DNA of 64,000 nucleotides, taken from contig JAISTB010000009.1 of NCBI GenBank assembly GCA_031272775.1, positions 62,001 through 126,000 of the forward strand. Reading direction: 5' to 3'. A model generated the notes under the pieces. The model did not search any database. It saw only the letters and a program-made list of their open reading frames with translations, and was not told the DNA's origin. Positions 2,776 to 22,184 of the stretch are shown in pieces. Both the position numbers and the translations under genes were made by a program. This DNA is from Fusobacteriaceae bacterium. Lineage in GTDB: Bacteria > Fusobacteriota > Fusobacteriia > Fusobacteriales > Fusobacteriaceae. How positions within the stretch are numbered: the stretch's first letter is position 1; the number at the start of each line of letters is the position of its first letter.

Positions 2776-2784
2776 GTTCATATC

Positions 2785-2800
2785 ATGGAATCTGTTCCAT
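2785..2800. promoter_or_regulatory. Putative IclR autoregulatory operator
   Basis: Perfect 6-base inverted repeat ATGGAA-TCTG-TTCCAT, 25 bases upstream of the regulator's start codon. It has the same half-sites and 4-base spacer as TGGAA-CGCA-TTTCA found at the three minus-strand promoters near 13.9, 19.2 and 22.2 kb. It also resembles the classical E. coli IclR box (TGGAA...TTCCA). Binding by the adjacent regulator is inferred. Confidence 0.6.
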
Positions 2801-2825
2801 TATCTTGCGCAAAAAGGAGGGACCA

Positions 2826-3578
2826 ATGATTCAAAGCCTCGTCCGGGCCATGGAGCTGCTGGAAGTCTTGAACGGCAGCAAATCCAGCTATTCCATCGCC
2901 TATCTGTCTTCGGCGCTCAATCTGCCGCCCAGCACCATTCACCGCCTCTTGCAGACGCTCTGCGGCACGAAATTTGTCGTCAAGGACGAAAAATCACACG
3001 ATTACAAGTTGGGACCGGCGCTGATCCCGCTGGGGATTACGGCCCGGAAGAATTTGCATCTGCAAAATGCCGCGACGCCTATATTGGAACGCCTTGTGAC
3101 CGTCACGACCGACGATTCCTATCTCGTGATCTCCACGGGCTACAAAGGCTTCGTGCTCGAGCATATCGACGGCCCCAGCCCCCTTAAAGTACTGGAGGAT
3201 TTCGGTTTCGAACTGGACCTCCACTGCGGCGCGATCCGGAAAACGCTTCTGGCCTACCAGCCCGAGGCCTTCATTGAGGAATACATCGAGACCGTGATCA
3301 AGACGCCCAACGCCTTCCCCAAGGTGGAGCCCGCGGTCCTTTTGGAAAACCTTGAGAAAATACGAAAAGAAGGAGTCGCTGTGTCCCATGGGGACTACAT
3401 CAGCAACTCCGTCGGCATCGGCGCGCCGGTTTTCAACAGCGAGGGGAAAATCATCGCGTCCATCGGAATCATTACCCCCGCCTCGAAAATCGCGGGCGAG
3501 AAAAAACTCAATGAATTGAAGCAAACCGTGAAAACATCAGCCCAGGAACTTTCCGAAATGATGGGCTTCTTCAAATAG
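2826..3578 (+). CDS. IclR-family transcriptional regulator
   Basis: A 250-residue IclR-family protein with an N-terminal winged helix-turn-helix (residues 4-65; LPPSTIHRLLQTL is the recognition region) and a C-terminal effector-binding domain (about 75-245). The start at 2826 follows AAGGAGG by 5 bases. Longer in-frame starts upstream would run through the operator and lack a ribosome site. It is convergent with the glutamate fermentation cluster and overlaps the end of hgdB by 8 bases. A palindrome upstream of it recurs in degenerate form at the promoters of that cluster and of two TAXI-TRAP transporters, so it is the best candidate regulator of all three. The effector is unknown; glutamate, 2-hydroxyglutarate or 5-oxoproline are guesses. 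Confidence 0.88.
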   Translation: MIQSLVRAMELLEVLNGSKSSYSIAYLSSALNLPPSTIHRLLQTLCGTKFVVKDEKSHDYKLGPALIPLGITARKNLHLQNAATPILERLVTVTTDDSYLVISTGYKGFVLEHIDGPSPLKVLEDFGFELDLHCGAIRKTLLAYQPEAFIEEYIETVIKTPNAFPKVEPAVLLENLEKIRKEGVAVSHGDYISNSVGIGAPVFNSEGKIIASIGIITPASKIAGEKKLNELKQTVKTSAQELSEMMGFFK

Positions 3579-4701
3579 TCTCGGCAAAGGCCTGCAGCTG
3601 CGTCCGGGCCTGGCCGAAGTCTTCCATTTGCTGGTCATAGCCCAGAATGATGTGGGGAATCCCCGCCTCCTCAAAGGCCTTCTTCAGCGAAGGATATTCG
3701 AGCTCTTCGGGATCGCAGAACGTCATGGCGAAGACCACCGCCCCCTGCGCCCCGGTGTCTTTGGCCTTTTTCACTACATGGGCCGGCCTCTTCACAATTT
3801 CGGGATCGTACAACAGGGGATCGTTGTCCTGGGCCGCGAAATGCAGCGCCAGAGCCCGCATGGGGTCCGTCTCGTTTTCGGGCGCGTCCACGTCGAAGGA
3901 TCGCGACTCGTGAGCCACGTCGTCAGCCACAATGGCGATTTTATTTTCGTCGAAGATCTTCAGCAGGGCCGGATTGTCCACGATGATCCCCGAGGTCAGG
4001 ACCTTGACGCCGCCCCACTTGGGAACAGGCAATTTTTCAAGTTCTTCGTTCAGCTCGTCCAGCAGCTTTGTATATTGACACTTGAGCTGATAGTATCCGC
4101 TTTTGAGGACGGCGCCCCTGTCCACGGCGGAAATCACGTCGGGATGAAGTCCCGCTAATTTTACAAATTTCCGCCGGGCCGCCCGGCTTTTGTTGTATAT
4201 TTTGATGGCGTTTTGCAATTTTTCGTCGGTGACGGGGCTTCCCGCGATCTCCTCCAGTTGTTTTTTTATCTTGCCGTACTGGGCCATCGTGAACGTGATC
4301 CCGTATTCAGGCCGCCGGTTTTGCGGATGGGCCAGGAACATAAAGGGAATCTGCGGCACGGCCACGCGAAAATTCTGACTCAAGGGCCGGAGCGTATCGC
4401 ACATGGTCGTGACAATCACGCCCGAAAGACCGTCCAGAGCGCCTGTCAGGCCCATTTCGAGGTTCATTTGGGCAATCGTGCAGTAAAAGCTCGCGAAGTA
4501 TTCCTTGGCTTTATTGATCGTCCCCTGGCGTCCCCAGACGCCGAAAGGAACCATACCGGCCGCGTAGACCAGTTCCTCGGGGGCGTAGTAGGGGAAAACG
4601 CCGACGGCTTTTTTGCCTTCGTCCTTATATTGATACAGCTGTTTGCCGGGATTCGCGGCCACGTCCCGGAATGTTTGCAATAATGCGCTTATTCTTTCCA
4701 T
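3571..4701 (-). CDS. hgdB: (R)-2-hydroxyglutaryl-CoA dehydratase, beta subunit
   Basis: Subunit of the oxygen-sensitive dehydratase (component D) that removes water from (R)-2-hydroxyglutaryl-CoA to give glutaconyl-CoA through a ketyl radical. The 376-residue length fits the family. Cysteines in FYCTIAQMN, TTMCDTLRP and MTFCDPEE are placed to hold a [4Fe-4S] cluster, as known for HgdB. It starts at an ATG with a purine-rich site (GGAGG) just upstream. It is the last gene of the gcd-gct-hgd cluster and its stop overlaps the convergent iclR stop, leaving no room for a separate terminator. Other members of the 2-hydroxyacyl-CoA dehydratase family act on lactyl- or phenyllactyl-CoA; the gct and gcd neighbours point to hydroxyglutaryl-CoA. 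Confidence 0.93.
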   Translation of the reverse strand: MERISALLQTFRDVAANPGKQLYQYKDEGKKAVGVFPYYAPEELVYAAGMVPFGVWGRQGTINKAKEYFASFYCTIAQMNLEMGLTGALDGLSGVIVTTMCDTLRPLSQNFRVAVPQIPFMFLAHPQNRRPEYGITFTMAQYGKIKKQLEEIAGSPVTDEKLQNAIKIYNKSRAARRKFVKLAGLHPDVISAVDRGAVLKSGYYQLKCQYTKLLDELNEELEKLPVPKWGGVKVLTSGIIVDNPALLKIFDENKIAIVADDVAHESRSFDVDAPENETDPMRALALHFAAQDNDPLLYDPEIVKRPAHVVKKAKDTGAQGAVVFAMTFCDPEELEYPSLKKAFEEAGIPHIILGYDQQMEDFGQARTQLQAFAETI

Positions 4702-4727
4702 TTTTCCTCCAAATGTGGATCGGCATT

Positions 4728-4753
4728 GCGGGCGGCAAAATGCCGCCCCTACG
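4728..4753. repeat. REP-like hairpin element, copy 1
   Basis: The stem GGGCGGCA / TGCCGCCC with a 3-base loop is followed by CTACG. It lies in the 106-base gap between hgdA and hgdB and has sister copies at 4773 and 29008. Confidence 0.65.
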
Positions 4754-4772
4754 CGGTGATTTTTCGATCATT

Positions 4773-4798
4773 GGCGGATGTGGACATCCGCCCCTACG
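4773..4798. repeat. REP-like hairpin element, copy 2
   Basis: The stem GGCGGATG / CATCCGCC with a 4-base loop is followed by CCTACG. It is arranged in direct orientation with copy 1, 20 bases away. The compensating changes in the two arms show that the hairpin, not the primary sequence, is kept. Confidence 0.65.
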
Positions 4799-4807
4799 GG
4801 ATGATCA

Positions 4808-6037
4808 TTAATTTTTACGCAAACGGGCGTTTTCCTCCATGATTTCGTATAATCCTTCGACCCGGGTTTTGTATTGTTCTTCCGAAAAATTGCGAGGATC
4901 CGCCTGATCGCCGTCAAAGCCTGCTACGGCCACGCCGAGGTCTTTGCGGAAACGCCGTTCCATCTCGGGCATGTAGCCGCTCCAGGGCTTGCAGGAACGG
5001 TTGTAGTGGACAAGGATGCCGTCGACGTTGTTTTCGCGGCAGATCCCTTCCCGCCAGTCTACGCCGGTCTCGAGGCAAACGGAATTGGGCGCCTTGTAGT
5101 AGGCTTTCATCAATTCGTCCATGTTGTTGTAGACGAAGCCGAAGGCGGGGGCGTACACGACGGCCGTGGTGTTGATGCCTTTTTCTTTCAGGGGCGCGAA
5201 CAGCTTCTGCAGTTCGGGCCAGCAGGGAATGCCCTCAAACATGATCCGGTGGTTTTCGGCGTATTTCCACGTCGATTTGCCGGTCTTGACGTTTTCTTCG
5301 AGCTCCGCGGCCAAAGCCTCGAAGGCCTCCGCCGATTCTTTTTTGCAGCGGGCCGTCACGACGTCGGCCATGTGGTTGAAGAGGTCGAAGCCGCTGAAGG
5401 GAGAAGGCGTATACTGGCAGTAGGAACAAACCTTGAGCCAGGCCTTGGCCGTCCGGTTGGCGTTGGCGCAGACTTCCTCAAAGCGCTTCTCGTCCCACTT
5501 CCTGCCCGAAATGGCCTCCAATTTCTTGATGGCGTCCTCGAACTGCCCCCGCACGTAGGCCACGTTTTCGTCGGCCACTTCGACGGTATTGTTGTAGGGG
5601 ATGTCTATCATAATAAGCGGGATGTTGTGCATCCGCGCGATGTTTTCATACCATTTGGTCATACAGTTGCAGATGTTGTTGCAGCAAAGGAGAAAATCCG
5701 GCTGGGGCATGGCCCGTTCGTCTGCTTCATAGCCCGCTGCGTAGGCGAGGCTGATCCGGGCGTAGCCGCAGATATCGTTGTGATAGCCCATGGCTTCGGC
5801 GTGCTCGCACATCCGCTGTCCGCCGTGTTTGGCTGAAATGGCCGCCGCCTGGTTTTCCGGGTAGCAGACCGCGAGGCCCAGCGTCTCGGCAATCTCCGCG
5901 GGGAACTTGGACGAGGACCAGCCCACGGGCTCTCCTCTCTTTTTGGCGTCCCAGGCGTTCTGATACACCATATCGACCACGGCCCTGAGCGCATCCTTGG
6001 CGCCGGGCTTCTTTTCCGTCTTTTGAATTTCTGACAT
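4808..6037 (-). CDS. hgdA: (R)-2-hydroxyglutaryl-CoA dehydratase, alpha subunit
   Basis: Partner of HgdB in component D of the dehydratase. It has 409 residues, somewhat shorter than the alpha subunit of Acidaminococcus as I remember it. Seen: a conserved N-terminal region ending GWSSSKFPAEI, the cysteine-rich stretch DFLLCCNNICNCMTKWYE (about residues 115-132) expected to bind a [4Fe-4S] cluster, and a C-terminal segment DGILVHYNRSCKPWSGY typical of the family. The ATG at 6037 follows AGGAGG. It sits between hgdC (18-base gap) and hgdB, the classical hgdCAB order. Confidence 0.93.
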   Translation of the reverse strand: MSEIQKTEKKPGAKDALRAVVDMVYQNAWDAKKRGEPVGWSSSKFPAEIAETLGLAVCYPENQAAAISAKHGGQRMCEHAEAMGYHNDICGYARISLAYAAGYEADERAMPQPDFLLCCNNICNCMTKWYENIARMHNIPLIMIDIPYNNTVEVADENVAYVRGQFEDAIKKLEAISGRKWDEKRFEEVCANANRTAKAWLKVCSYCQYTPSPFSGFDLFNHMADVVTARCKKESAEAFEALAAELEENVKTGKSTWKYAENHRIMFEGIPCWPELQKLFAPLKEKGINTTAVVYAPAFGFVYNNMDELMKAYYKAPNSVCLETGVDWREGICRENNVDGILVHYNRSCKPWSGYMPEMERRFRKDLGVAVAGFDGDQADPRNFSEEQYKTRVEGLYEIMEENARLRKN

Positions 6038-6055
6038 GTTTACCTCCTGTGTAAC

Positions 6056-6835
6056 CTATTTCGCCCGTTGAAAGGCGAACAGGGCCGCCCCCAAAGCCCC
6101 GTTGTATTGGGCCAGAGGCGATGTGTATACTTTGTGTCCAATTTCCTGTTCCATGGCCGTGACGACCCCGTGGTTCTGGGCGACGCCGCCGGTCATGACG
6201 ACTTCGTCCTCGATGCCGATCCGTTTGGCGAGTCCGCCGACTCTTCCGGCCACGGAGCGGTGAATGCCGCGAATAATATCCCGTTTGTCCGTCGCCTGGG
6301 CCAATTGGGAAATCACTTCCGACTCGGCGAAGACCGTGCAGGTGGAGCTGATGTTGACGACCTTGGTCGATTCCGCCGAAAGGCCCTCAAGTTCGTCGAT
6401 CCGCACTTCCAGCACGCGGGCCATCACGTCAAGAAAACGCCCCGTGCCGGCGGCGCATTTGTCGTTCATCACGAAGTTGTTCAAGAGCCCGTTGGGCGCG
6501 ATTTTCATGACCTTGGCGTCCTGTCCGCCGATGTCGATGACGGTCTTGACGCCGGGGAAGAGAAAAAAGGCCCCTTTGGCGTGGCAGCTGAGCTCGCTCA
6601 ACTGATTGGCGACGCCCTCGATGGAATAGCGGCCGTAGCCGGTGGCCAGCGTCAGTGCGATGTCTTCCATGGCGAGATTTCCCGCCTCCAGGACGGCGGC
6701 AATGGCCCGGGCCGGTCCCGAAGTCCCCGCGCCCACATCGATCAGGGATTTGGCCGCGATTTCGGTCCCGTTTTTCAAGATCACGCATTTTGAAGCCGTG
6801 GAGCCCACGTCAATGCCCAAGGTATAGATATCCAT
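6056..6835 (-). CDS. hgdC: Activator of 2-hydroxyglutaryl-CoA dehydratase (component A, ATPase)
   Basis: Homodimeric [4Fe-4S] ATPase of the ASKHA fold that injects one electron into HgdAB at the cost of ATP. Choosing the ATG at 6835 gives 259 residues, the family length. The phosphate-binding loop IDVGSTASK lies at residues 8-16 and [10 protein letters not shown] at 99-108. The two cluster ligands C127 (NDKCAAGTG) and C166 (SSTCTVFAE) fall at the same numbers as in the characterised Acidaminococcus protein. GGAGG lies upstream of this ATG. A longer reading to 6874 adds an arginine-rich leader and is not favoured. Confidence 0.94.
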
Positions 6836-6912
6836 GGTGTTCCTCCCGAAAAGCGGATCCCTCCGGCGGCGCAATCAAGCGGCCGCCGGAGCGTAATCCT
6901 GCGTCAGCCGGC

Positions 6913-8139
6913 TCAGCCGTTGGCCATTTTTGCCGCGACGTTGATAAAGTTGGTAATGATAATCGCGTTGGTGATATTGCTCAAGAATCCGCCGATGACC
7001 GGCACCACAAAGAAGGCCAGCTTGGAATAACGGTATTTTGTGCAGACCGCCTGCATGGTCGTCATGGATACGGGCACCGCGCCGAGGCCGAAGCCTGTGT
7101 GACCGACGGAAATAATGGCCGAATCGTAATTTCTTCCGCAGAGATTGAAGGTGATGAAGTAGGCGAAGAGGAGCATCAAAGCCACCTGCGCAAAGAGCAG
7201 CACGATCAGGGCCAGTCCCAGTCCTTCCAACTGCCAGAGCTTCATGGACACGATGGACATGGACACGAAAAGCGCCAGGGAGAAATCTCCGACGATGTCA
7301 ATGGCCTCATACTGGGAATCGTCCGTCGTTCCCTTCTTGTCGAGATACAGTCGGATCAGGATGCCGCCCAGCATGGCGCATACATGGATCGGGAAGCTGA
7401 CATTGAGTTTTTTCAGGATGATGAATACGGCCTGACCGATGCCCAGCGCGATACACATCATAAATACGGCGTTCAGCACATGGGGTTTCTTGACCGCGAC
7501 GCCCGCCGCCTTGGCCAGAGAAGCCACGTCGTCCTTGCCGTCCAGTTCGGGATCCTCAAAGTGGTTCTTCCGCACGAGGAAATTTCCGAAGGGTCCGCCG
7601 ACGATACAGCCGGAAATGAGTCCGAAGGTCGCCGCCGCGATGGCCACTTCCATGGCCGCGGGGGCCCCCGCCTTGACCGCCAGAGGCGCGAAAGACGCCG
7701 CGTTGCCGTGCCCGCCGGTCATGGGGATGGAACCCGTCATCAGGGCGATCAGGGGATTGATGCCCATGACCTTGCCGATACCGAGGGCCAGCACATTTTG
7801 GAGCGCCGCCAATACCGCCGCCAGGATCGCGAAGATGATCACAAGTTTTCCGCCTTTTTTCAAAAGAGCCAGACTGGCCGAAGCGCCGCTGGCCGCGAAG
7901 AAGATACATTAGAACAGGCTGTTGACCGTGGCGTAATCGTAATTGAGCTCGGCTACGCCCGCCTTGTACAGGATCAGCGACAGGATCGAAAAGATCGTCC
8001 CGCCCACGACGGAAGCTGGCAGGCAGTATTTTTTGAGAACAGGAAATTTTGCCCGCAGAAATTCGCCGAAGTAGATGGCGACCACAGAGATGCCTAACGT
8101 TTCAAACATACCGAGTTTGATCTTTAGAATTTCGTTCAT
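6913..8139 (-). pseudogene. gltS: Sodium/glutamate symporter GltS interrupted by one in-frame TAA
   Basis: Read through, this is a full-length GltS (about 408 codons) with two hydrophobic halves. Seen are the family segments LMTGSIPMTGGHGNAA and HTGFGLGAVPVSMT. The frame stays open except for one TAA at 7909-7911. It lies between ...YATVNSLF and CIFFAASGASASLALL, matching a region of GltS that is normally continuous. Nothing is deleted and the frame is unchanged, so this is a point nonsense change (or a sequence error). No good restart is visible after it: the next possible start is a TTG at 7863 without a ribosome site. The gene lies inside the glutamate fermentation operon between gcdA and hgdC. 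If truly broken, glutamate uptake would rest on other carriers. Confidence 0.85.
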
Positions 8140-8223
8140 GTAAAACCTCCTATAACCTAGATGTTGCTATGCTACCGTGTAAACCCTTGATTGGTGTTCC
8201 ATATCGGTATGCCTCATGTTGTC

Positions 8224-9981
8224 TTATTTCGTATACGTATTGAATTCCCGTATCACTCTGGGCGTCAGCATCTGATGAAAAGCGCAGATGGCTTTTTTGT
8301 TCTGGTACGCCGCTTCGGTAAAGGCTTCCATATAGGGCCGCAGCGACATCATGTCGACGATCTCGTCCACCATGCCCGTAAAAGCGCAGTATTTCGGTCT
8401 GGATTTCTCCGTGTACTCCCGGATGACCTGATTCATTTTATCGATGGTGCTCTGGATATCCTTGCCCTCTTTCTGGTCCTTAACGAGCCGCCGGGCGTAC
8501 ATGGCCGCGGCCGCCGTTTCGCCGTTCATCACATAGACTTCCGTCGCCGCCGTTCCCAGCGAGAAGGCGTTGTTGTTATTGGCCTGGGGGCCGCCCAGCA
8601 CATAATGCGCCGCCGCCGTCCCCTTCCGCAGCGTGATCTCCAGATGGGGGATATCCGATACTTCGATCGAATAGATCAGCGACTGTCCGAGACCCAACAA
8701 TTCGGCTTTTTCGGCGTCATCGCCGACGTCTATGCCCGTGGTGTCCTGCAGCCAGATCATGGGAATCTTGTCCCGGGCGCAGAGCGTCACGAATTCGTTC
8801 ATCTTGACGAGACCCTGGCGGTAGAGCTTGCCGCCGATCCCGATGGAATTTTCCTTGTATTCGGGATATTTCATCAACATGCCCTGCACATTGGCTACGA
8901 CCCCCACCAAAAGTCCGTTAATCTTCGCGAGACCCGTCGCCATTTCCGGCCCGTAGCCCTTTTTGTATTCAAAAAACTCGCTGTTGTCGAAGAGCCGCGC
9001 CATGACCTCATAGATGTCGTATTGCCGCTTCTGGTTGAAGGGAACGAGGGAATACAGATCCTCTTCGGGATAAGCGGGCAGCACGGGGTCGTCGACTCTG
9101 AAGAACTCGAGATTGTAGGCGGGCAGCATGGACATGTATTTTTTGATGCCCTCCAAAACCCCTTCCTCATCCTCGTAAACTTCCCGGAAGAATCCGGTCT
9201 CGTTGTAATGGATCGGAACCGATCCCGGCGGATTGGTCTTTTTCGCGTTGACCGTGGCGTCGATCAGCGCCTGGGCGCTCTCCTTGTCCACATAGCCCTT
9301 GGGATTCATGCCGCCGAGGATGCCCGCGCCGCCGACAGCCATATTGGCGTCCTTGTGGGCCACAAGTATCGTCGGGCTGATGGAATGGTAGCCGCCTCCG
9401 GCGGGGTTCGTACCGTAGATGCCGACAATCACGGGAATCCCCAATTTTTGAAGCTCGGCGTTCCTGAAGAAGGGCGTTCCGCCGCCGCGCCGGTTGGGAT
9501 AGACTTTTTCCTGTTCGTCAAATTTGACGCCGCTGCAATTCAGCACATAGACGAGGGGAATCCCCAAAATCTTGGCCGTATCGGAGCCCCGAATCAGGTT
9601 TTCGGCCTGGCCCGGCACCCAGGCGCCCGCTAATTTTTTATTGTCCGAAGCGATGACAACGGCCCATTTGCCGCAGATCTTGGCGAGACCTTTGATGATG
9701 CCCGTCGATCCGTTGTCGTTTCCTTCGGGATTAAAGAGACTGTTCAAGGGAAACCAGGTCCCTTCGTCGATAAGCTCGGCGAGTCGCTGAATGGCGGTCA
9801 TTTGCCCCGCCTCGTTGAGGGATTCGTCGCTTCGTCCCTGGGCCTGGGCCGTCTCGATCAGTTCCTCGATTTCGTTTTCCACCGCCAGCAGCTGGTTTTT
9901 GTTCTCCTCGTTGACGATACTGAGCGGCTTTCCGATTTTGGGCATGTTTTTGAAGTAAGCGCCCATGGAATAATAACTCAT
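8224..9981 (-). CDS. gcdA: Glutaconyl-CoA decarboxylase, carboxyltransferase alpha subunit
   Basis: Transfers the carboxyl group of glutaconyl-CoA to the biotin on GcdC, producing crotonyl-CoA. The ATG at 9981 gives 585 residues, the size of the Acidaminococcus enzyme, and follows AGGAGG. The protein has two crotonase-fold carboxyltransferase halves. Diagnostic stretches are SDNKKLAGAWVPGQAE, YPNRRGGGTPFFRNAEL, YGTNPAGGGYHSISP and LQDTTGIDVGDDAEKAELLG. These are nearly identical to what I recall of GcdA and separate it from methylmalonyl- or oxaloacetate-type subunits. It lies 10 bases after gctB in the same operon. Confidence 0.95.
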   Translation of the reverse strand: MSYYSMGAYFKNMPKIGKPLSIVNEENKNQLLAVENEIEELIETAQAQGRSDESLNEAGQMTAIQRLAELIDEGTWFPLNSLFNPEGNDNGSTGIIKGLAKICGKWAVVIASDNKKLAGAWVPGQAENLIRGSDTAKILGIPLVYVLNCSGVKFDEQEKVYPNRRGGGTPFFRNAELQKLGIPVIVGIYGTNPAGGGYHSISPTILVAHKDANMAVGGAGILGGMNPKGYVDKESAQALIDATVNAKKTNPPGSVPIHYNETGFFREVYEDEEGVLEGIKKYMSMLPAYNLEFFRVDDPVLPAYPEEDLYSLVPFNQKRQYDIYEVMARLFDNSEFFEYKKGYGPEMATGLAKINGLLVGVVANVQGMLMKYPEYKENSIGIGGKLYRQGLVKMNEFVTLCARDKIPMIWLQDTTGIDVGDDAEKAELLGLGQSLIYSIEVSDIPHLEITLRKGTAAAHYVLGGPQANNNNAFSLGTAATEVYVMNGETAAAAMYARRLVKDQKEGKDIQSTIDKMNQVIREYTEKSRPKYCAFTGMVDEIVDMMSLRPYMEAFTEAAYQNKKAICAFHQMLTPRVIREFNTYTK

Positions 9982-9991
9982 GCTGTTCCTC

Positions 9992-10783
9992 CTAAACTGG
10001 TACTTTGATAAAGGCCTGGCCCGGGTCGATTTCCTCCCGGATAATGCGGATAATCTCAGGCGTCGGCGCGTCGAGAGGCGCGGCCCTCGAGACATCGATG
10101 TCAAAGCCGGTGTTTTCCTTGACGTCTTCGGGCGAGGAGGTCGGGTAATAGCCGGCCAGATACATCCGTTTCGTCTTTTCGTCGAACTTCATGACGCCCC
10201 GGTCCGTGACGACCATGACCGGTCCGCGGTTTCCCGGAAGGCCCGCTTTTTCCCGGCCGCCCGGTCCGTCCATCCAGCCGGCGCTCGTCACGTAGTCCAC
10301 CTTGTCGATGAATCTCCGCTTTTCGTGCTGCATCATGATGACCGTGTTGGAATAGGTCGCTATGCCGTTGGCGCCTCCCGACCCCGTAAATCTTGTCTTC
10401 GGGTGGTGATAATCACCGATGGACGTCGAGTTCACGTTGCCGTAGGGGTCAATCTGGGCCCCGCCGATAAAGGCGATCAGTCTGTCGCTGTCGTGCTGCC
10501 ATTCGCAGGCCTCAAAGCCGATAAATCGGATATTTGGCCACTGCACCGCGCAATGGGCCATAAAACGGATATCGCCGACGCTTCTCGGCACTTCGATGGG
10601 ATCGCAGTCCATGAGACCGCTCTCGACGATGATGTTGCACTTGGGCGCGAAGATCCGCTTGGCCACGGAAGCCCCGATCAGAGGCAGTCCCGTGCCCACG
10701 ATGACCACCTGTCCGTCTTTGATCTGCTTCGCGATGGTGACCGCCTGCATTTCCTTGTTCGTCCAATTGGTATAATCAGCCAT
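9992..10783 (-). CDS. gctB: Glutaconate CoA-transferase, subunit B
   Basis: Catalytic subunit of the class I CoA-transferase that moves CoA from acetyl-CoA or glutaconyl-CoA to (R)-2-hydroxyglutarate. It has 263 residues. The active-site glutamate is E54 (IIVESGLMD), the same position as in the crystallised Acidaminococcus enzyme. Further family motifs are FIGGAQIDPYGNVNSTSIGD and GSGGANGIAT. Its ATG overlaps the end of gctA by 8 bases, so translation is probably coupled. Confidence 0.94.
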   Translation of the reverse strand: MADYTNWTNKEMQAVTIAKQIKDGQVVIVGTGLPLIGASVAKRIFAPKCNIIVESGLMDCDPIEVPRSVGDIRFMAHCAVQWPNIRFIGFEACEWQHDSDRLIAFIGGAQIDPYGNVNSTSIGDYHHPKTRFTGSGGANGIATYSNTVIMMQHEKRRFIDKVDYVTSAGWMDGPGGREKAGLPGNRGPVMVVTDRGVMKFDEKTKRMYLAGYYPTSSPEDVKENTGFDIDVSRAAPLDAPTPEIIRIIREEIDPGQAFIKVPV

Positions 10784-13823: not shown

Positions 13824-13846
13824 CTATGCACCTCCTTTAGGTTAAA

Positions 13847-13884: not shown

Positions 13885-13913
13885 ATCATACAACTTTTCT
13901 TTCAATAAGTCAA
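13885..13913 (-). promoter_or_regulatory. Predicted sigma-70 promoter of the gcd-gct-hgd operon
   Basis: Minus strand: TTGACT at 13908-13913 and TATGAT at 13885-13890 with a 17-base spacer. The expected start is near 13878, just upstream of the operator-like sequence. Confidence 0.7.
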
Positions 13914-14024: not shown

Positions 14025-14741
14025 TTATGCTCTGTAGCGTGTTTCTTTGTATTTGCCCGTGTCAACGAGTTGGGCGATCCGCTCGTATTCTCCCTTGGCA
14101 ATGGGGACAAAGCGTATCGTATCCCCAGCTTCCAGCAAAAAATGCGGGTCGCTCTGAAGATTGAAGATCTTCAGCGGCGTGCGCCCCAAAAGCTGCCAGC
14201 CGCCAGGGCTGCTCAGGGGGTAAATGCCTGTCTGCTCGCCGGCGATCCCTACGGATCCGGCAGGGATGCGCTTTCTCGGCTCTTTCAGACGCGGCGTCGC
14301 GATTTTCTTCGACATGCCGCCGAGATAGGGAAAACCCGGCGTAAACCCGAGCATGTAGACGAGATAATCCCGGGACGCGTGGATTTGCACAACTTCGTCG
14401 GTCGTGAGCTTGTTGTGTTTCGCGATGGTCTCGATGTCGGGACCGTATTCCCCGCCGTAGAGCACGGGAATCTCCACGACCTGCTTGGGAACGTTCTCCA
14501 TGCTCTGGTAGCTCGTATCGCAATTGTCGCTGACGAGTTCCACCATCTCCTCATAGCTGATCTTTCGGGGGTCGTAATAGATAATGACCGACCGGTACGT
14601 CGGCAGCAGGTCCAGGATAAAATCGTTTTTCAGGGAATCGAGATACTCCGTGATTTTTCTGACTTTGGAATTGATCAGAGGGGAGATTTCGTTGCCCAGC
14701 TCTACAATGAGGGCGGAATCCCCCGCGTGTAAAAACCGCAT
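14025..14741 (-). CDS. pxpB: 5-oxoprolinase subunit B (PxpB/KipI family)
   Basis: A 238-residue allophanate-hydrolase-subunit-1-like protein. With PxpA and PxpC it forms the ATP-dependent prokaryotic 5-oxoprolinase, which opens 5-oxoproline to glutamate. Seen: the N-terminal RFLHAGDSALIVELG block and the core LGFTPGFPYLGGMSKKIATP and SPGGWQLLGRTPLKIF. The ATG at 14741 follows GGAGGAGG. It lies 23 bases after pxpA and ends the operon. No PxpC (KipA-like) gene follows; the next gene is gcdD. KipI itself is a kinase inhibitor in Bacillus, but the pxpA and transporter context favours oxoprolinase. Confidence 0.85.
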   Translation of the reverse strand: MRFLHAGDSALIVELGNEISPLINSKVRKITEYLDSLKNDFILDLLPTYRSVIIYYDPRKISYEEMVELVSDNCDTSYQSMENVPKQVVEIPVLYGGEYGPDIETIAKHNKLTTDEVVQIHASRDYLVYMLGFTPGFPYLGGMSKKIATPRLKEPRKRIPAGSVGIAGEQTGIYPLSSPGGWQLLGRTPLKIFNLQSDPHFLLEAGDTIRFVPIAKGEYERIAQLVDTGKYKETRYRA

Positions 14742-14764
14742 CTTTCCTCCTCCGCGTGTTCTCT

Positions 14765-15520
14765 TTACAAAAAGGCGCTGATCACAATACGCTCCGCCTC
14801 GAGGGCCTCCCGCAGGCCTCTGGCGAAGGCTACGGCCTCGGGATTGTCCCCGTGCACACAAACCGTTTCCGCCGTGATCGGGATGTCCTTTCCCGTGATA
14901 CTGCGGACGGTCTGCTCCTTCACCATGCGGATGACCCGGGCCACGGCGGCGTCCTTGTCGGTAATCAGGGCCCCGGGCAGTTTTCTTGCGACCAGCGTCC
15001 CGTCCTCGTTGTAGGCCCGGTCGGCGAAGACTTCGCTCTTGACCCGGATTCCCGCCGCCTTTCCGGCGAGAACGAGCATACTGCCCGAAAGCCCCACGAG
15101 GATCAGCTCGGGATCTGTCTCCCGGATGGCCTCGGCCACAGCGATGGCCAGTTTTTCATTGCTTACGGCCATGTTGTACATGGCGCCGTGGGGTTTCACG
15201 TGCTGCAGGCGAACGCCGGAAGACCGCGCAAAGGCGGCCAGCGCGCCGATCTGGTACTTGAGGTAGGCCTTGATCTCGGCCTCCGACACGTCCATGTTCC
15301 GCCGCCCGAAACCCAATAAATCCGGTAAAGAGGGGTGCGCGCCGACGGCGACGCCGCTTTTTACCGCCATGGTCACGGTTTTTTCCATAATGAGGGCGTC
15401 GCCCCCGTGCCAGCCGCAGGCCACGTTGGCCGACGTAATATACGGCAGGACCTCTTCGTCCATACCCATTTTCCACGCCCCGAAGCTCTCTCCGAGGTCG
15501 CTGTTCAAATCGATACTCAT
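14765..15520 (-). CDS. pxpA: 5-oxoprolinase subunit A (LamB/YcsF family)
   Basis: A 251-residue LamB/YcsF protein. It has the N-terminal signature IDLNSDLGESFGAWKMG, then the blocks ANVACGWHGGDALIM, GAHPSLPDLLGFGRR, VKPHGAMYNMA and CVHGDNPEAVAFA. This family is the A subunit of prokaryotic 5-oxoprolinase. It starts 6 bases after the TRAP membrane gene and is followed by pxpB, so transport and ring opening are probably coupled. 5-Oxoproline forms spontaneously from glutamine and by peptide breakdown, and yields glutamate for the neighbouring pathway. Confidence 0.9.
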   Translation of the reverse strand: MSIDLNSDLGESFGAWKMGMDEEVLPYITSANVACGWHGGDALIMEKTVTMAVKSGVAVGAHPSLPDLLGFGRRNMDVSEAEIKAYLKYQIGALAAFARSSGVRLQHVKPHGAMYNMAVSNEKLAIAVAEAIRETDPELILVGLSGSMLVLAGKAAGIRVKSEVFADRAYNEDGTLVARKLPGALITDKDAAVARVIRMVKEQTVRSITGKDIPITAETVCVHGDNPEAVAFARGLREALEAERIVISAFL

Positions 15521-15526
15521 GGTTGA

Positions 15527-17524
15527 TTACGCTCCGACAGCGGTTCCCGTGTCAGAAGGATTTTTCTTCGCCATGGCCTTCTGGAAGAGCACGACGACGA
15601 TCAAAATCGCAAAACCGATAATATCCGTCTTCAATCCCGGCACGATAAGCATCAGCGCGCCGACCAAAGACAGAGCCCGAACCGCCACATTGATATGGGT
15701 GTACATATAACCCTCGACGGCCGCCGACAGGAGAAATACTCCGATACAGGACGTCACCGCCGTCAGCAAGCCCTCAGACACCGTGGTATTCACGAGAAGC
15801 AGCTGGCTGTTGTAGATAAAGATATAGGGTAAAAGGAAACCCGCCAGCGCCAGTTTGACCGAAGCGACGCCGGTTTTGACCGTGTCGCCTCCGGAAATTC
15901 CCGCGGCGGCAAAGGCCGCGAGGGCCACCGGCGGCGTGATGTTGGCGAACATGGCGAAGTAGAAGCAGAAAAGATGCGCCGCCACGTCGGTTATACCGAG
16001 CTGGATCAGAGCCGGCACCGCGATCGTATAGGTGATGATATACGAGGGGATAGACGGCAGGCCCATGCCGAGAATCATGCAGGTCACCATGGTGAAGACC
16101 AGCGTCAACGGCAGGCTGGATTTTCCGAGACGGATGATGGCGCTCGCCATATTCGTCGTAAATCCGGTCTTTGTACAGGCTCCGATGATGATGCCCACGC
16201 AGGCGCAGGCCATCGCTACCGATACGGTCTGCTTGGCCGAGGAAATCAGGACCGAGCGGATGTCGTCAAGACTCATGCGGGATACTTTCCGCGTCTGGGC
16301 GATGATAACCGTGGCGATAATCGTGTAGAGCGCGCCCATAATCAGCGTCTTTCCGCTGAAAAACAGCATGTACATCAAGATCGCGATCGGAAAGGTCAGG
16401 TGCCAGTATTTCTTCATGGTGTCCTTGAAGGCCGGCAACTGGTCCTTGGGGAGACCCACAAGTTTGTCCTTGGAGGCCCGCATGTCGATCTGAAACAAAA
16501 TCCCCAGATAGTAAATGACCGCGGGTACCGCCGCGTACACGATAATCTGGCTGTACTGGATGCCCAGGGTCTCCGCCATAATAAAGGCGGCGGCGCCCAT
16601 TACGGGCGGCATCAGCTGGCCGCCTACGGAAGCCGTTGCCGAAACGGCGCCCGAAAATTCCTTACTGTAGCCGGATTTTTTCATCAGCGGAATCGTAAAG
16701 GATCCTGTCGTCACGACGTTGGCAATGGCCGAACCGTTGATCATGCCGAGAAGCCCCGCGGCCAGAACGGAAACCTTTGCGGGGCCGCCCTTGGTGCCTC
16801 CGGCCACACTGATCGCAAGGTCATTGAAAAAGGCCCCCATGCCGCATTTGTTCATGACTTCGCCGAAAACGATGAACAGGAAAATATAAGTCGACGACAC
16901 GTTTACGGACGTGCCGTAGATGCCTTCGGTGTTAATGAAAAGATGCCCGATCAGGCTGGGCCAGGCCGTGCCCCGGTGCATAAAGAGGCCCGGGAAATTG
17001 ATCTTGATCAAGCCCCCCTTGACTCCCATCAGGGCGTAAATCGTGAACAGCAGCCCGATAATCGGAAGGGCCAGTCCCGTAATCCGCCTTGAAGCCTCAA
17101 GAACCAAAAGGACGAGAATCGTCCCCATGACGACGTCCATGGTCGTCGGCGCGGCGGCCCGGTCTACTATGCTGAAATAATTGACCCACATATAGATCGG
17201 GATAGCGACGGACAGCGCCATGAGGATCCAGTCATACCACGCGATGTGTTTCCGGCTCGATTTCCGGAAGGCAGGGTACATGGCAAAGCCCAGCAGCAGG
17301 ATCGCGCCCACGTGGATGGATCTGTTCCGCAAAGTTTCCGGCATGTAAAAGCCGGAGGCATAAACCAGATGGTACAGCGTCACGAGGATGCAGGTCCACT
17401 CAAAGGCCTTCTTGACGAGAGGACTGACAAAATTCCGCGTTCGGCTTTCTTTTTCAAATTCTTCCAAAATCGCCTGTCCGTCTACTTGTTGTTCCTGAAC
17501 GATTTTGTCGATGGTGTTCTCCAT
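15527..17524 (-). CDS. TRAP transporter, fused 4TM/12TM membrane protein (TAXI type), system 2
   Basis: A 665-residue inner-membrane protein in which the small DctQ-like (about residues 40-190) and large DctM-like units are joined, as in TAXI-TRAP systems. Segments such as GGTKGGPAKVSVLAAGLLGMING, GQLMPPVMGAAAFIMAE and MVTCMILGMGLPSIPSYI (only parts are conserved) are typical. It would import an organic anion with sodium or protons, using the TAXI protein at 18150-19130. The gene lies between DUF1850 and pxpA, which suggests 5-oxoproline or a related glutamate derivative as substrate. This is inference from the neighbours. Confidence 0.88.
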   Translation of the reverse strand: MENTIDKIVQEQQVDGQAILEEFEKESRTRNFVSPLVKKAFEWTCILVTLYHLVYASGFYMPETLRNRSIHVGAILLLGFAMYPAFRKSSRKHIAWYDWILMALSVAIPIYMWVNYFSIVDRAAAPTTMDVVMGTILVLLVLEASRRITGLALPIIGLLFTIYALMGVKGGLIKINFPGLFMHRGTAWPSLIGHLFINTEGIYGTSVNVSSTYIFLFIVFGEVMNKCGMGAFFNDLAISVAGGTKGGPAKVSVLAAGLLGMINGSAIANVVTTGSFTIPLMKKSGYSKEFSGAVSATASVGGQLMPPVMGAAAFIMAETLGIQYSQIIVYAAVPAVIYYLGILFQIDMRASKDKLVGLPKDQLPAFKDTMKKYWHLTFPIAILMYMLFFSGKTLIMGALYTIIATVIIAQTRKVSRMSLDDIRSVLISSAKQTVSVAMACACVGIIIGACTKTGFTTNMASAIIRLGKSSLPLTLVFTMVTCMILGMGLPSIPSYIITYTIAVPALIQLGITDVAAHLFCFYFAMFANITPPVALAAFAAAGISGGDTVKTGVASVKLALAGFLLPYIFIYNSQLLLVNTTVSEGLLTAVTSCIGVFLLSAAVEGYMYTHINVAVRALSLVGALMLIVPGLKTDIIGFAILIVVVLFQKAMAKKNPSDTGTAVGA

Positions 17525-17540
17525 AGTATACTCCTTTGCG

Positions 17541-18032
17541 CTATCTCAAAGTCAACTTGATCCGCCCGTGCTCCGGCAGGTCCCGGCCCGTCAGGATCAC
17601 GCGATCATTGACCGAAATGTATTTCAACTGGGTCTGTGAATTGATCCAGTTGAATTCCGGGAATACGCTTCCCTTGATGTTCTCCATGTAAATCAGTCCG
17701 TCGGCGTAGCGGTACGTGCAATCCATTTCGGCGGGAATCCCCGCGCCGAATCCGCCCACGGCTATCGTGAAAAGAGTGAATCTCTTTTTTTCCACCCTGT
17801 AATACTCATCCCAGTCCACATGCTCAAACGAATGTATCCAGCCGAAAGACAAAACATCCTCTTCCCTGATTTTGCCTGTGTAGTAAACCTCTCCCGTCAA
17901 CTGGTGGGAGACCACGAGCGTGTGGTTTCGCCTGCCGCTCACAAAAGCCGCTGTGACCGCGACAAGCGCGATAAAAATGAAAAACCCGAAAAAAACGCTT
18001 CTTTTGATGTTACGCAATCCGCAAAACAGCAT
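17541..18032 (-). CDS. DUF1850 protein associated with TAXI-TRAP transporters
   Basis: A 163-residue protein with one N-terminal membrane anchor or signal (VFFGFFIFIALVAVTAAFV) and a DUF1850 domain recognised by FGWIHSFEHVDWDEYYRVE. DUF1850 genes typically sit between the TAXI receptor gene and the fused TRAP membrane gene, as here. Their function is unknown; an accessory role in the transporter is likely. Only the transporter copy at 15.5-19.1 kb has one; the other TAXI-TRAP system lacks it. Confidence 0.75.
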   Translation of the reverse strand: MLFCGLRNIKRSVFFGFFIFIALVAVTAAFVSGRRNHTLVVSHQLTGEVYYTGKIREEDVLSFGWIHSFEHVDWDEYYRVEKKRFTLFTIAVGGFGAGIPAEMDCTYRYADGLIYMENIKGSVFPEFNWINSQTQLKYISVNDRVILTGRDLPEHGRIKLTLR

Positions 18033-18149
18033 AAAATCTTCCCGTCAAAATTCTCCCGTTGCGATCTCCCCCCCGGGAACGGGGAGGAGACCCGGGATTC
18101 GGTTTTATGGTGTGTGTGGTATCAAACGCTTGCGCGTTCAATCAACAGA
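18033..18149. other. Intercistronic gap between TAXI gene and DUF1850
   Basis: A 117-base spacer with two foldable parts: AACGC-TTGC-GCGTT at 18125-18138, and a C-run facing a G-rich run (18065-18096) with CCCGGG repeated at its ends. Such hairpins after a binding-protein gene often hold the receptor message above that of the membrane part. No gene is seen. Confidence 0.3.
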
Positions 18150-19130
18150 TTAATTGAGCGGCGTTTTGTAGCCCGCTTCCTTCCAATATTTCGCCGCGCC
18201 GTCGTGCAGGGGAATCGTTACGTCCTCCACGCCGAAGGTAACGTCGATGTTCTTGTCGGCGGCGTTGTGGGAGGCCTTGATCGTGGCGATGTTCTCGAAG
18301 ATCACCTTCATCATGTCATAGACCACTTCGTCGGACAACTCTTTGCTGACGAGCATGATGTTGTACACGAATACGGACTGCACGTCTTCTTTATTGTTGT
18401 AGGTGCCCGCGGGAATCACGGTCTTGGCGAAGAAGGGATACTTGGATACGAGTCCGTCGCGGCCCGCGCCGTCGATGGGCACAATGACCATCTTGTACTG
18501 GGTGGCCAGTTCCATAACGGTGCCGTTGGGCAGTCCCGAGGTCACGAAGGCCGCGTCGCACTGGCCGTTTTTCATCTGGTCAATGGCTTCGCCGTAGGAC
18601 AGATAGTCCACTTTGCTGTCTTCATAAGTCAATCCATAAGCTTCATAAATCATCCGGGCGTTGAGTTCCACGCCGGAATTGGGAGCGCCAACGCCGACGC
18701 GCTTGCCTTTGAGGTCGGCGGGGCTTTTGATGCCCGTACCTTCGAGGGTGACGAGTTGCACATAATTGGGCCACAAGCGCATCATGGCGCGCAAATTCTT
18801 GTCCGCAGTCTTGTACGCGCCGTAGCCCTCATAAGCCTGCATTACGGAATCCTGCATGGCGATGGCGATTTCCGCCTCTCCCTTCTGGATCATCGTAATG
18901 TTCTGGGCCGAAGCGCCCGTAGACTGGGAACTGGTCTTGTAGCCGCCGGCCTTGAGGGCTTCCGCGAAGGCCGCGCCGATGGGGAAATAAATCCCGCTGG
19001 AAGGTCCCGTGGCCACGGTGATAAACTCGCTGCCGCGGTCTACGGCGGCTACCGCGGGTTTACCCGCCAGGGTCAACACAATTGCCATCAAGCTTACCAT
19101 GAACAGTGACGCTTTCAAAAATCTTTTCAT
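18150..19130 (-). CDS. TAXI-family TRAP transporter solute receptor, system 2
   Basis: A 326-residue secreted or periplasmic binding protein: an N-terminal signal peptide (FLKASLFMVSLMAIVLTLAG), then the TAXI domain opening with FITVATGPSSGIYFPIGAA and containing SAQNITMIQKGEAEIAIAMQD and KRVGVGAPNSGVELNARMI. It feeds the fused TRAP membrane protein downstream. TAXI proteins with known ligands bind glutamate, glutamine or related acids; here the oxoprolinase genes in the same unit suggest 5-oxoproline or glutamate. It has its own promoter and operator. Confidence 0.88.
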   Translation of the reverse strand: MKRFLKASLFMVSLMAIVLTLAGKPAVAAVDRGSEFITVATGPSSGIYFPIGAAFAEALKAGGYKTSSQSTGASAQNITMIQKGEAEIAIAMQDSVMQAYEGYGAYKTADKNLRAMMRLWPNYVQLVTLEGTGIKSPADLKGKRVGVGAPNSGVELNARMIYEAYGLTYEDSKVDYLSYGEAIDQMKNGQCDAAFVTSGLPNGTVMELATQYKMVIVPIDGAGRDGLVSKYPFFAKTVIPAGTYNNKEDVQSVFVYNIMLVSKELSDEVVYDMMKVIFENIATIKASHNAADKNIDVTFGVEDVTIPLHDGAAKYWKEAGYKTPLN

Positions 19131-19165
19131 TTTTTCCTCCTGATTTGGTCAAAAACAATATAAAT

Positions 19166-19188
19166 TTCACACTGTGGAACGCATTTCA
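19166..19188. promoter_or_regulatory. Putative IclR operator of the TAXI-TRAP 2 / pxpAB operon
   Basis: TTTCA-CACTG-TGGAA (19166-19179) overlapping TGGAA-CGCA-TTTCA (19175-19188). The latter 14 bases are identical to 13857-13870. It lies about 10 bases downstream of the predicted start and 35 bases before the receptor gene. Confidence 0.62.
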
Positions 19189-19204: not shown

Positions 19205-19233
19205 ATTGTACCCCATATTTCTATTTTTGTCAA
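19205..19233 (-). promoter_or_regulatory. Predicted strong sigma-70 promoter for the TAXI-TRAP 2 / pxpAB operon
   Basis: Minus strand: TTGACA at 19228-19233 and TACAAT at 19205-19210, 17 bases apart. The -35 box overlaps the stop codon of the upstream TRAP gene (19230-19232). It shares the words CCCCAT and CAATAAGTC with the gcd promoter region, hinting at common origin. Confidence 0.75.
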
Positions 19234-21080
19234 TAAGTCTGTGTATTTTTGGTAAATGCCAGCTGCCACACGAGAAATACCGCAAAACAGGCAATCCCGG
19301 CGATCGTCGAGATCTTCTCGGGGATAATCATCAAAAGGCCGATCAGGACGAGCAAAATCCGTATGAACACGCCGATTTTTGCCCGGAGGAAGCCGATCAT
19401 GCCGACGGCCACGGACCAGAGCCCGATAATGGCCGGAATGACGGCAAGAATGATGTCTTTGGCGGATCCGAGGCCCAGCAGGGCCGGATTGTACACAAAG
19501 ACATAGGGAATCAAAAATGTGATAAAACTGTATTTGAAGGCCTCGATTCCCGTATCCCAGAACGGCGTTTTCGCCACGCCCGCGGCCGTATAGGAGGCGA
19601 GGGCCACGGGAGGCGTGATCATCGAGAGATTGGCGAAATAAAAAATGTAGAAGTGGGCCACGATCAAGGGCACGCCGATCTTTTTCAAAGCCGGCGCCAA
19701 AAGCGTCGCCGACATGATGTAGGCCGCGCTTGTGGGCATGCCCATGCCCATAATGATCACGAGAACCATGGCGAGCACGAGGGCCAACCAAAGGCGGTTT
19801 CCGGCCATTTTGGAGATTTCCTGGCTGATCATGAGCCCGAGACTCGTATAACTGAGAATCCCGACGATGATCCCGGCCACCGCGCAGGGGATGGCTACGA
19901 CCACGGCGGAATTGGCCCCGTCGATCAGCGTGTTGATGAACTTGACCACGCCGAGCCGGGAGTCTTTCCGGGCCGAGGCGAGCACGACGAGAACGATCAG
20001 CGAGTAAGACGAGGCGAGCCGCACGGTCTTTCCGATCGCGATCAGATACACGAGCAGAATCAACGGGATCAGCAGGTAAAAATACCGGATGATCATCTTT
20101 TTCAGCGCGCCGGTGTCGACGGGCTTCGATTTGATGTTATATTTTTTCGCGTAATAATGCACGATGAAGACGAGAGACAGGATGTAGAGCGTCGCCGGTA
20201 TGATGGCGTAAAGAACGATCGTAAAATACGACATGCCCACATAGTCGGCCATCAAGAAGGCGGCGGCCCCCATGACCGGCGGAATGATCTGCCCGGCCGA
20301 TCCCGCGATGGCGAGGATGGCCGCCGTGAATTTGGGCTCAAAGCCCGAATCCACAACGGATTCGTAGGTCAGCGTCCCCACGGAGGCCACATTTGCCGCG
20401 GCGCTTCCGCTGATGGTCCCGAAGAGCCCGCAGGCCACGACCATGGATTTCGCTTCCCCGCCGACCATTTTGCTCGTGATGAACTTGGCCAGGGAAATGA
20501 AGAGCTTCCCCGCCGGCGTCGCCGAAAGGAAGGCCCCGAAGATCATAAAGTAAAATACCGTATCGGCGGAGACCCCTGTGGCTGTGCCGAGGATGCCGTT
20601 TGTGGAGACATACTGCAACTCGATCATGCTCGAAGCGTTCATGCCGCGATGGGTGAGCACGCCGGGCAGCATTTTCCCCGCAAAGCCGTAGACGATAAAG
20701 ACGAGGCAGACGATGGTCATGGAAAGACCGAGCATCCGGCGGCAGGACTCGATCAATAAAATCATGACGATCCCGCCGAGGATCAGTTCTATCGGCGTCA
20801 TATCGGTGATATAGAGCATCCGCGCCATGATCCGGGCCGAATCAAAATAGAGAAAAGCGCCGCAGATAATGGCGAGAATCGCGCAGAAGAAATCCACGGC
20901 CTTTCCGATCAGCGGGTCGCCGGCGAGGAAGGGTTTTGACAAAAAAACCATGGCGATCGCAAAACCGATGTGGATTCCCCGCAGACCGATCGTCGAGATC
21001 CCCGCCTTGAAGCAGGCGTAGATCTGGAAGGCCACCCAAATCAACGCGACAATATTCCGAAAAATCTTTCGTGCTCCCAC
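19230..21080 (-). CDS. TRAP transporter, fused 4TM/12TM membrane protein (TAXI type), system 1
   Basis: A 616-residue polytopic inner-membrane protein with fused DctQ- and DctM-like parts. Typical DctM blocks are CGLFGTISGSAAANVASVG, GSAGQIIPPVMGAAAFLMA and VIIMGMGMPTSAAYIM. It lies 12 bases after the TAXI receptor gene at 21093-22118, its obvious partner. The predicted start is a GTG at 21080 with only a weak ribosome site. The substrate is unknown; the shared operator with the glutamate operon suggests an acidic amino acid or a 2-oxo/2-hydroxy acid. The protein is clearly diverged from the second TRAP protein at 15.5-17.5 kb. Confidence 0.88.
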   Translation of the reverse strand: MGARKIFRNIVALIWVAFQIYACFKAGISTIGLRGIHIGFAIAMVFLSKPFLAGDPLIGKAVDFFCAILAIICGAFLYFDSARIMARMLYITDMTPIELILGGIVMILLIESCRRMLGLSMTIVCLVFIVYGFAGKMLPGVLTHRGMNASSMIELQYVSTNGILGTATGVSADTVFYFMIFGAFLSATPAGKLFISLAKFITSKMVGGEAKSMVVACGLFGTISGSAAANVASVGTLTYESVVDSGFEPKFTAAILAIAGSAGQIIPPVMGAAAFLMADYVGMSYFTIVLYAIIPATLYILSLVFIVHYYAKKYNIKSKPVDTGALKKMIIRYFYLLIPLILLVYLIAIGKTVRLASSYSLIVLVVLASARKDSRLGVVKFINTLIDGANSAVVVAIPCAVAGIIVGILSYTSLGLMISQEISKMAGNRLWLALVLAMVLVIIMGMGMPTSAAYIMSATLLAPALKKIGVPLIVAHFYIFYFANLSMITPPVALASYTAAGVAKTPFWDTGIEAFKYSFITFLIPYVFVYNPALLGLGSAKDIILAVIPAIIGLWSVAVGMIGFLRAKIGVFIRILLVLIGLLMIIPEKISTIAGIACFAVFLVWQLAFTKNTQTY

Positions 21081-21092
21081 CCTTTTTCCCCC

Positions 21093-22118
21093 TTATTTGA
21101 TCAAGCCGATCTCACGATAATATTTTTCCGCGCCCGGATGCAGGGGGAAACCGCCGTAGAGTTCAGGCGTAGCGCAGGCTTCGCGGTTGAAGTTGCCGAG
21201 TCCCGCGTGACCGGTTTTCAGTTCCTCGGGATTCTCGTAGATCTGTTTTACGATGCGATAGGCGATTTCGTCGGGCAGATCCGTCGTCGTCACAATATTG
21301 GTCGTGATGCCGGCGCAAATGACGTCTTTCGTCTGTTTGTTGAAGCTGTTGGCGGGCATGGTGGCGACGCTGTAGCCGTTCCCTTTCAGGTATTCAAGGG
21401 ACTGCTCGTCAAGCTCGCCCACGGTGACGTCGGCGGTCGTGCAGAGTTCCGTAAAAGCGGGATGACCAACGGATACGTGCTGCATGAAGAAGTCGCACTT
21501 GCCGTCCTGATAAGCGGCCACGATGCTGGCAAAATCCGTATGAGTCACGGAACCGCCCCATTTGATGATGTCTTCATAGGAACAGCCGATGGATTCCAGC
21601 ACGAGCCGGGTCGTATATTCGCTGGCGGAACCGGTTTCCGACGTGTAAACATTGATCGGCATTTTCTTTTCGGCGATGTCCCGGATGCGGGTAAAGCCCG
21701 CTCCGTTCCGGATCGCGATGCCGACATACATCTGGTCGATGGTCCCTACGAGTCCGCGCAGTTTGGGAATGGCGCCGCTTTCCTGAAAAGCCAGGATCCC
21801 TTTGTAGGCCCAGGCGTTTGTACAGTTGAAACCTAGACCGATATCGGCCTTTCCGGCTTTCAGCAAGAGCATATTGCCGACGCCGCCGGAATTGGGCATA
21901 ACGTCAATTTTGAGACCCGTATCATGCGAGGTCACCACATTGGCCACCGTCGCGCCGTACACGTACCAGGAACTGCCCACGGCAAGCGTCGCGAACTGGA
22001 CGGTTTTGTCGACCTTGTCGCCGGGATTGAACGTATACTTGGCGTGGCTCGTCGTAAAAGCGGTCAGGAATAACACAAGGGCAAACAGCACAGCAGTAAT
22101 TCTTTTCACTTTTCTCAT
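21093..22118 (-). CDS. TAXI-family TRAP transporter solute receptor, system 1
   Basis: A 341-residue exported binding protein. Its signal peptide ends near TTSHA-K, and the TAXI domain contains FATLAVGSSWYVYGATVAN, MPNSGGVGNMLLLKAGKAD and VYTSETGSASEYTTRLVL. The ATG at 22118 (MRKVKRITAV) follows AAGGAGG; the longer reading to 22166 would pass through the operator. It is the first gene of the TAXI-TRAP 1 unit, with a good promoter and operator upstream. Confidence 0.88.
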   Translation of the reverse strand: MRKVKRITAVLFALVLFLTAFTTSHAKYTFNPGDKVDKTVQFATLAVGSSWYVYGATVANVVTSHDTGLKIDVMPNSGGVGNMLLLKAGKADIGLGFNCTNAWAYKGILAFQESGAIPKLRGLVGTIDQMYVGIAIRNGAGFTRIRDIAEKKMPINVYTSETGSASEYTTRLVLESIGCSYEDIIKWGGSVTHTDFASIVAAYQDGKCDFFMQHVSVGHPAFTELCTTADVTVGELDEQSLEYLKGNGYSVATMPANSFNKQTKDVICAGITTNIVTTTDLPDEIAYRIVKQIYENPEELKTGHAGLGNFNREACATPELYGGFPLHPGAEKYYREIGLIK

Positions 22119-22160
22119 AAAAATATCCTCCTTTCGTTGTCCAAAATTTTGTGTTTGTCT

Positions 22161-22184
22161 TTCCATAATGTGGAACGCATACCG
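22161..22184. promoter_or_regulatory. Putative IclR operator of the TAXI-TRAP 1 unit
   Basis: TTCCATAATGTGGAACGCAT (22161-22180) is identical over 20 bases to 13847-13866. The dyad TTCCA-N5-TGGAA is perfect; the third half-site is degenerate (TACCG instead of TTTCA). It lies about 20-40 bases after the predicted transcription start. Confidence 0.62.

Follow-up and report, generated by a model that had tools for sequence, protein, structure and literature searches.

The window analysed here, 64,000 nucleotides long, comprises bases 62001-126000 of contig 9 in the 2.09-Mb genome (99% complete) of a gut Fusobacteriaceae bacterium. Near one end lies iclR (2826..3578, plus strand), identified by its PF01614 match and its orthologs as the gene for an IclR-family regulator of 250 aa. 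It is convergent with hgdB, the last gene of a minus-strand operon with the order gcdD-gcdC-gcdB-gctA-gctB-gcdA-(gltS)-hgdC-hgdA-hgdB. Based on family-level matches, gcdD and gcdC (13017..13824) encode the small membrane subunit and the biotin carrier of a sodium-pumping glutaconyl-CoA decarboxylase, and the remainder of the operon (3571..12998) consists of gcdB (11820-12998), gctA (10776-11747), gctB (9992-10783), gcdA (8224-9984), gltS (6913 to about 8133), hgdC (6056-6835), hgdA (4808-6037) and hgdB (3571-4701). gltS, for a sodium/glutamate symporter, is interrupted at 7909-7911, where a TAA stop stands in frame. At the family level, the operon thus provides the CoA transferase, the activase, two dehydratase subunits and four decarboxylase subunits of a 2-hydroxyglutarate pathway, with the subunit names following gene order. 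Neither dehydratase subunit reaches its hydroxyisocaproyl-CoA equivalog cut-off; given the neighbouring gct and gcd genes, we infer that the substrate of the dehydratase is a hydroxyglutaryl compound.

Two more minus-strand operons lie at higher coordinates. The TAXI1-pxpAB operon (14025..19130) contains TAXI1 (18150-19130), a gene at 17541-18032 whose product we take to be DUF1850-like (it had no NCBIfam match), a gene for a fused TRAP permease (15527-17524), pxpA (14765-15520) and pxpB (14025-14744). The TAXI2 operon (19230..22121) contains TAXI2 (21093-22121) and a second fused permease gene (19230-21080). Both are of the TAXI-TRAP type: TAXI1 and TAXI2 score 322 and 181 bits to the binding-protein family TIGR02122 (cut-off 84 bits), and the permeases 686 and 536 bits to TIGR02123 (cut-off 321 bits). 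TAXI1 matches 1us4 (3.1e-54) and 8s4j (3.4e-41), and TAXI2 matches 8s4j (1.7e-24). They are related to the glutamate-binding TAXI proteins VcGluP (PMC11574862) and Thermus TtGluBP (1US4/1US5), whereas the substrates of TAXI1 and TAXI2 are putative; for TAXI1, co-transcription with pxpAB points to pyroglutamate. The TAXI1-pxpAB and gcd/hgd operons are probably separated by a terminator, an inverted repeat (AAAGAGAATG...CATTCTCTTT) with T residues after it, located at window ~13970-14005 between pxpB and the promoter of gcdD.

An earlier note on this DNA had described an IclR-type dyad recurring at the promoters of the region, and the observation was confirmed. TGGAACGCATTTCA (TGGAA-CGCA-TTTCA) is present in the same letters at 13857-13870 and 19175-19188, the 20-base block at 22161-22180 is identical to 13847-13866, and the palindrome ATGGAATCTGTTCCAT precedes iclR at 2785-2800. 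The boxes are real, but the TGGAA/TTCCA dyad proposed as the site is only part of it. The fuller unit is 24 bp long with three boxes, TGRAAYGCRTTCCAYAWTRTGGAA (TGRAA-N4-TTCCA-N5-TGGAA), and its third box, which had gone unnamed, forms with the central box a TTCCA-N5-TGGAA pair. In the copy read as half-kept at 22171-22184, the pair retained is TTCCA-N5-TGGAA, at 22161-22184. On the transcribed strand, the operator consensus is TGRAA-YGCR-TTCCA-YAWTR-TGGAA.

Suvorova and Gelfand (2021) distinguished two types of IclR motif, group 1 (WTTYCRYW3RYGRAAW) and group 2 (TGRAACAN1-2TGTTYCA), and predicted three-box sites combining both in 32 orthologous groups (PMC8222616). The last two boxes of our unit (TTCCAYAWTRTGGAA in the gcdD sites) conform to group 1, minor variants aside, and the first two are similar to group 2, the spacing between TGRAA and TTYCA being 4 as against the published 5-6. 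Like the operators of PcaU and the 32 predicted groups, the unit consists of three alternating boxes; in contrast to them, the genes concerned here are those of hydroxyglutarate fermentation (PMC8222616). Three-box IclR sites have thus been described before (PMC8222616).

All four predicted operators were placed on the minus strand. Those of gcdD (TGAAATGCGTTCCACATTATGGAA, 13847..13870, 0 mismatches to the consensus), TAXI1 (TGAAATGCGTTCCACAGTGTGAAA, 19165..19188, from pattern scans) and TAXI2 (CGGTATGCGTTCCACATTATGGAA, 22161..22184, from pattern scans and a weight matrix) each lie just downstream of a good sigma-70 promoter, as had been noted. In the TAXI2 operator the outer box has decayed and the group 1 pair is intact. 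A promoter scan located the promoters, also on the minus strand, at 13885..13913 (TTGACT-17-TATGAT, gcd/hgd operon), 19205..19233 (TTGACA-17-TACAAT, TAXI1 operon) and 22209..22238 (TTGACA-18-TATAAT, TAXI2 operon). No other sequence in 2500-22400 matches sigma-70 as well as these three (12/12, 11/12 and 10/12, ending at 22209, 19205 and 13885), and the operators start 14 nt (gcdD), 16 nt (TAXI1) and 24 nt (TAXI2) after the -10 hexamer. At the iclR promoter, the operator (TGGAACAGATTCCATGATATGAAC, 2776..2799) contains most of the palindrome 2785-2800 and begins directly after the -10 hexamer TACAAT at 2770-2775; here the group 2-like pair is kept as a perfect palindrome and the third box is weaker.

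The unit is significant only in its long form. The short dyad TGGAA-N4-TTYCA, with 1 mismatch allowed, gave 13 matches in the window against 10.9 expected, which is not significant. When the 24-base form TTYCANNNTGTGGAACGCATTTCA was searched with up to 3 mismatches, it gave 3 matches in the whole 2.09-Mb genome, all of them the copies in the window, and its reversed control gave 0. Patterns were run on whole genomes and the weight matrix on loci only. Trained only on sites of G002 and of the genus g8 (see below), with those of the window genome (G000) and its close relative G001 left out, the matrix ranked the four window sites at the top (34.8, 28.7, 23.9 and, for iclR, 18.2 bits), and the best unrelated match in the window reached 5.8 bits.

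The window IclR scores 99.5 bits to IclR_C (PF01614; curated cut-off 24 bits), and it is the one protein of this family found in its genome; G001 likewise has one. The predicted structure, of middling confidence (pLDDT 78), shows an N-terminal winged helix and a C-terminal domain over ~250 aa, the fold of IclR proteins. Its top-ranking PDB matches all belong to the IclR family (1mkm at E 1.2e-17), with a TM score of 0.57 over both domains together and 0.75 against the effector domain of AllR. The protein falls far below the NCBIfam equivalog cut-offs of BhcR (112 against 350 bits), KdgR (78 against 275), AllR (78 against 406) and E. coli IclR (62 against 380). Local palindromic operators, acid catabolism and, in the model, the fold are shared with E. 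coli IclR, KdgR and AllR, but the target pathways differ.

Employing a set of 61 Fusobacteriaceae genomes, in which G000, G001 and G002 belong to one genus (g1), we identified orthologs of iclR in G001 (89% identity), G002 (70%) and six genomes of another genus, g8 (49-54%); none of the remaining genomes encoded an IclR relative above 45% identity. Both of the named loci that carry a close relative of iclR come from Fusobacteriaceae MAGs. Among the nine orthologs, the recognition helix (PPST[IV]HR[LI]L[QK]TLC) varies only conservatively. Linkage of the gene to the gcd/hgd operon holds in every one of the nine genomes: in g1 it converges on hgdB, and in g8 it stands directly before gcdD. A scan of the 61 genomes with TGRAAYGCRTTCCAYANTRTGGAA, allowing up to 2 mismatches, found sites in exactly the nine that carry the ortholog (at least 49% identity). 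hgdA is present in 16 of the 61 genomes, and the 7 of these that lack a close ortholog, in three genera, lack the site as well; G009, a g8 genome, is without hgdA, ortholog and site alike. The nine operator-bearing genomes are drafts from two genera and are not independent of each other.

Recurrence in related genomes, on which the proposal had been staked, was found: the operator precedes gcdD in one sister species as well as in six species belonging to the other genus, at a position equivalent to that in the window. Together with the window genome, 8 of the 9 genomes have it there, at 28-31% and 55% G+C. Conserved non-coding DNA is easy to spot in this comparison because the G+C content differs, being 55% in the window (53-55% in the window and G001) and 25-31% in the regions read from G002 and g8. 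A G+C content of 31% in G002 is an unusual spread within one Fusobacteriaceae genus. The window gcdD operator is 75-92% identical to the other gcdD sites, compared with 43-54% for the best-shifted upstream flanks. G001 is the exception, with its operator before TAXI1 and only a degenerate pair, TTCCG-N5-TGGAA, retained at gcdD. The iclR palindrome is kept in all three g1 genomes; it reads TGGAATATATTCCA in G002 and CGGAATCGATTCCG in G001, where the changes fall on both sides, so that symmetry is kept. In the g8 genomes neither iclR nor gltS showed a site, and autoregulation may therefore be limited to g1.

Several other patterns were set aside. The boxes alone (TGRAA-N4-TTYCA-N5-TGRAA) gave 59 matches across the family, mostly scattered and many repeated among close relatives, and it was those at the gcd and TAXI1 loci that had the YGCR core spacer or near variants of it. 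A looser group 1 pattern with 3 mismatches gave many matches in the genus against a poorly matched control and was not used. Four other 2-mismatch group 1 matches in G000 lie inside open frames of at least 800 nt, a weak G001 site (L037 16100) lies within an adenine deaminase-like frame, and 3-mismatch sites in G005, G007, G022, G030, G031, G036 and G070 are coding-like with no adjoining regulon gene. Separately, two more distant IclR proteins (~44% identical to that of the window) are encoded at L045 9224-14827 (G035:C9), where, judging from the translations, they flank genes for a D-2-hydroxyacid dehydrogenase-like protein and a GltS-like symporter; these neighbours would agree with a glutamate-derived ligand without proving it. 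At L068 15161-15193 (G002:C79), a variant overlapping three-box pair (TGAAA-N4-TTTCA-N5-TGAAA on both strands) precedes a TRAP operon (DctP-DctQ-DctM) that includes a gene for an alpha-hydroxyacid oxidase-like protein. This pair may be bound by one of the three further IclR proteins of G002.

We consider it likely that the 24-bp block is the operator of the nearby IclR, acting as a local repressor of glutamate/pyroglutamate uptake, 2-hydroxyglutarate fermentation and its own gene. Since the switch is kept beside the same IclR gene in a second genus, the block very probably does serve as a binding site for a repressor; as read from the DNA, the IclR regulon is real, and iclR is probably autorepressed. 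When inducer is absent, IclR would occupy the alternating boxes TGRAA-N4-TTCCA-N5-TGGAA, probably as a dimer of dimers, the form taken by other proteins of the family. The boxes start just after the predicted transcription start (at iclR, directly after the -10), and bound IclR would block initiation or clearance. A metabolite derived from glutamate, perhaps 2-oxoglutarate, 2-hydroxyglutarate, glutaconate, glutamate or pyroglutamate, would then release it.

Because binding downstream of the -10 would hinder transcription, repression is the likeliest sign. BhcR (NF045644), the regulator of the beta-hydroxyaspartate cycle, is likewise an IclR-family protein beside an acid-catabolic operon; it activates that operon in response to glyoxylate from a proposed site upstream of the -35 (PMC11323563). 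As BhcR is the best-scoring NCBIfam relative (112 bits, cut-off 350), the window IclR could bind its sites to activate transcription, or to act in both directions as has been suggested for BhcR, with the effector-bound form switching the pathway on. The predicted window operators, unlike the proposed BhcR site, lie downstream of the -10, where a bound activator would block polymerase at promoters with near-consensus hexamers, and we regard activation as improbable.

A repressor site also accounts for the block better than an RNA element, a hairpin or leader acting after initiation in the 5' untranslated region, would. The block does fall within what is predicted to be the untranslated leader, and TTCCA could pair with TGGAA, but the window has no Rfam match, three alternating boxes suit a protein site better than one stem, the box sequence is conserved beyond pairing alone, and the block accompanies an IclR gene; an RNA element is very unlikely. 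Equally unlikely is binding by another transcription factor with iclR as a bystander: the link between IclR and the sites is drawn from sequence, but the boxes fit the IclR-family consensus, iclR encodes the sole IclR protein in G000 and G001, and every genome with the site also has the gene. That the three copies arose by recent duplication of a single promoter segment and are devoid of regulatory meaning is the least plausible reading, for even though the 20-base block is identical at two window promoters, the sequences flanking the copies agree at only the 30-45% typical of unrelated DNA, and the block also precedes gcdD in another genus.

Repression by IclR would not extend to the same genes in every genome. 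The proposal of one regulon joining the gcd/hgd operon, both TAXI-TRAP importers and pxpAB was supported in the window, but the regulon is not uniform, as seen from the degenerate gcdD pair in G001 and the site-free TAXI1 and TAXI2 promoters in G002, and is partly lineage-specific. The site at TAXI1-pxpAB occurs in two of the three g1 genomes, G000 and G001 (TGAAATGCGTTCCGCATTGTGGAA); the matrix detected no operator at the TAXI1 promoter of G002. The TAXI2 site was found in the window genome only: the TAXI2 ortholog of G002, which is unlinked, has no operator, and G001 has no close TAXI2. By this distribution, the gcd/hgd operon is the old core of the proposed regulon, and the lineage-specific TAXI1-pxpAB and TAXI2 sites are its young part.

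Apart from the TAA at 7909-7911, the window gltS is an open frame, and it shares 79% identity with its intact counterpart in G002; the gene is missing from its operon position in G001. A broken or missing gltS together with operators at the TAXI promoters would fit replacement of the symporter under one repressor. It is conceivable, if still somewhat doubtful, that in the high-G+C lineage the repressor captured substitute TAXI-TRAP importers as gltS was lost, a reading that rests on three genomes and on a gltS stop that may have arisen as an error of assembly.

Among anaerobic gut bacteria, the 2-hydroxyglutarate route is a principal means of fermenting glutamate. Our literature search, mainly of freely accessible main texts, found no described dedicated or IclR-type regulator of this pathway. 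The analysis puts forward a candidate regulator together with its exact 24-bp target, whose conservation is sufficient for testing in another genus of Fusobacteriaceae. The predicted regulon would also be an example of an old core, the fermentation operon, to which importers were recently added.
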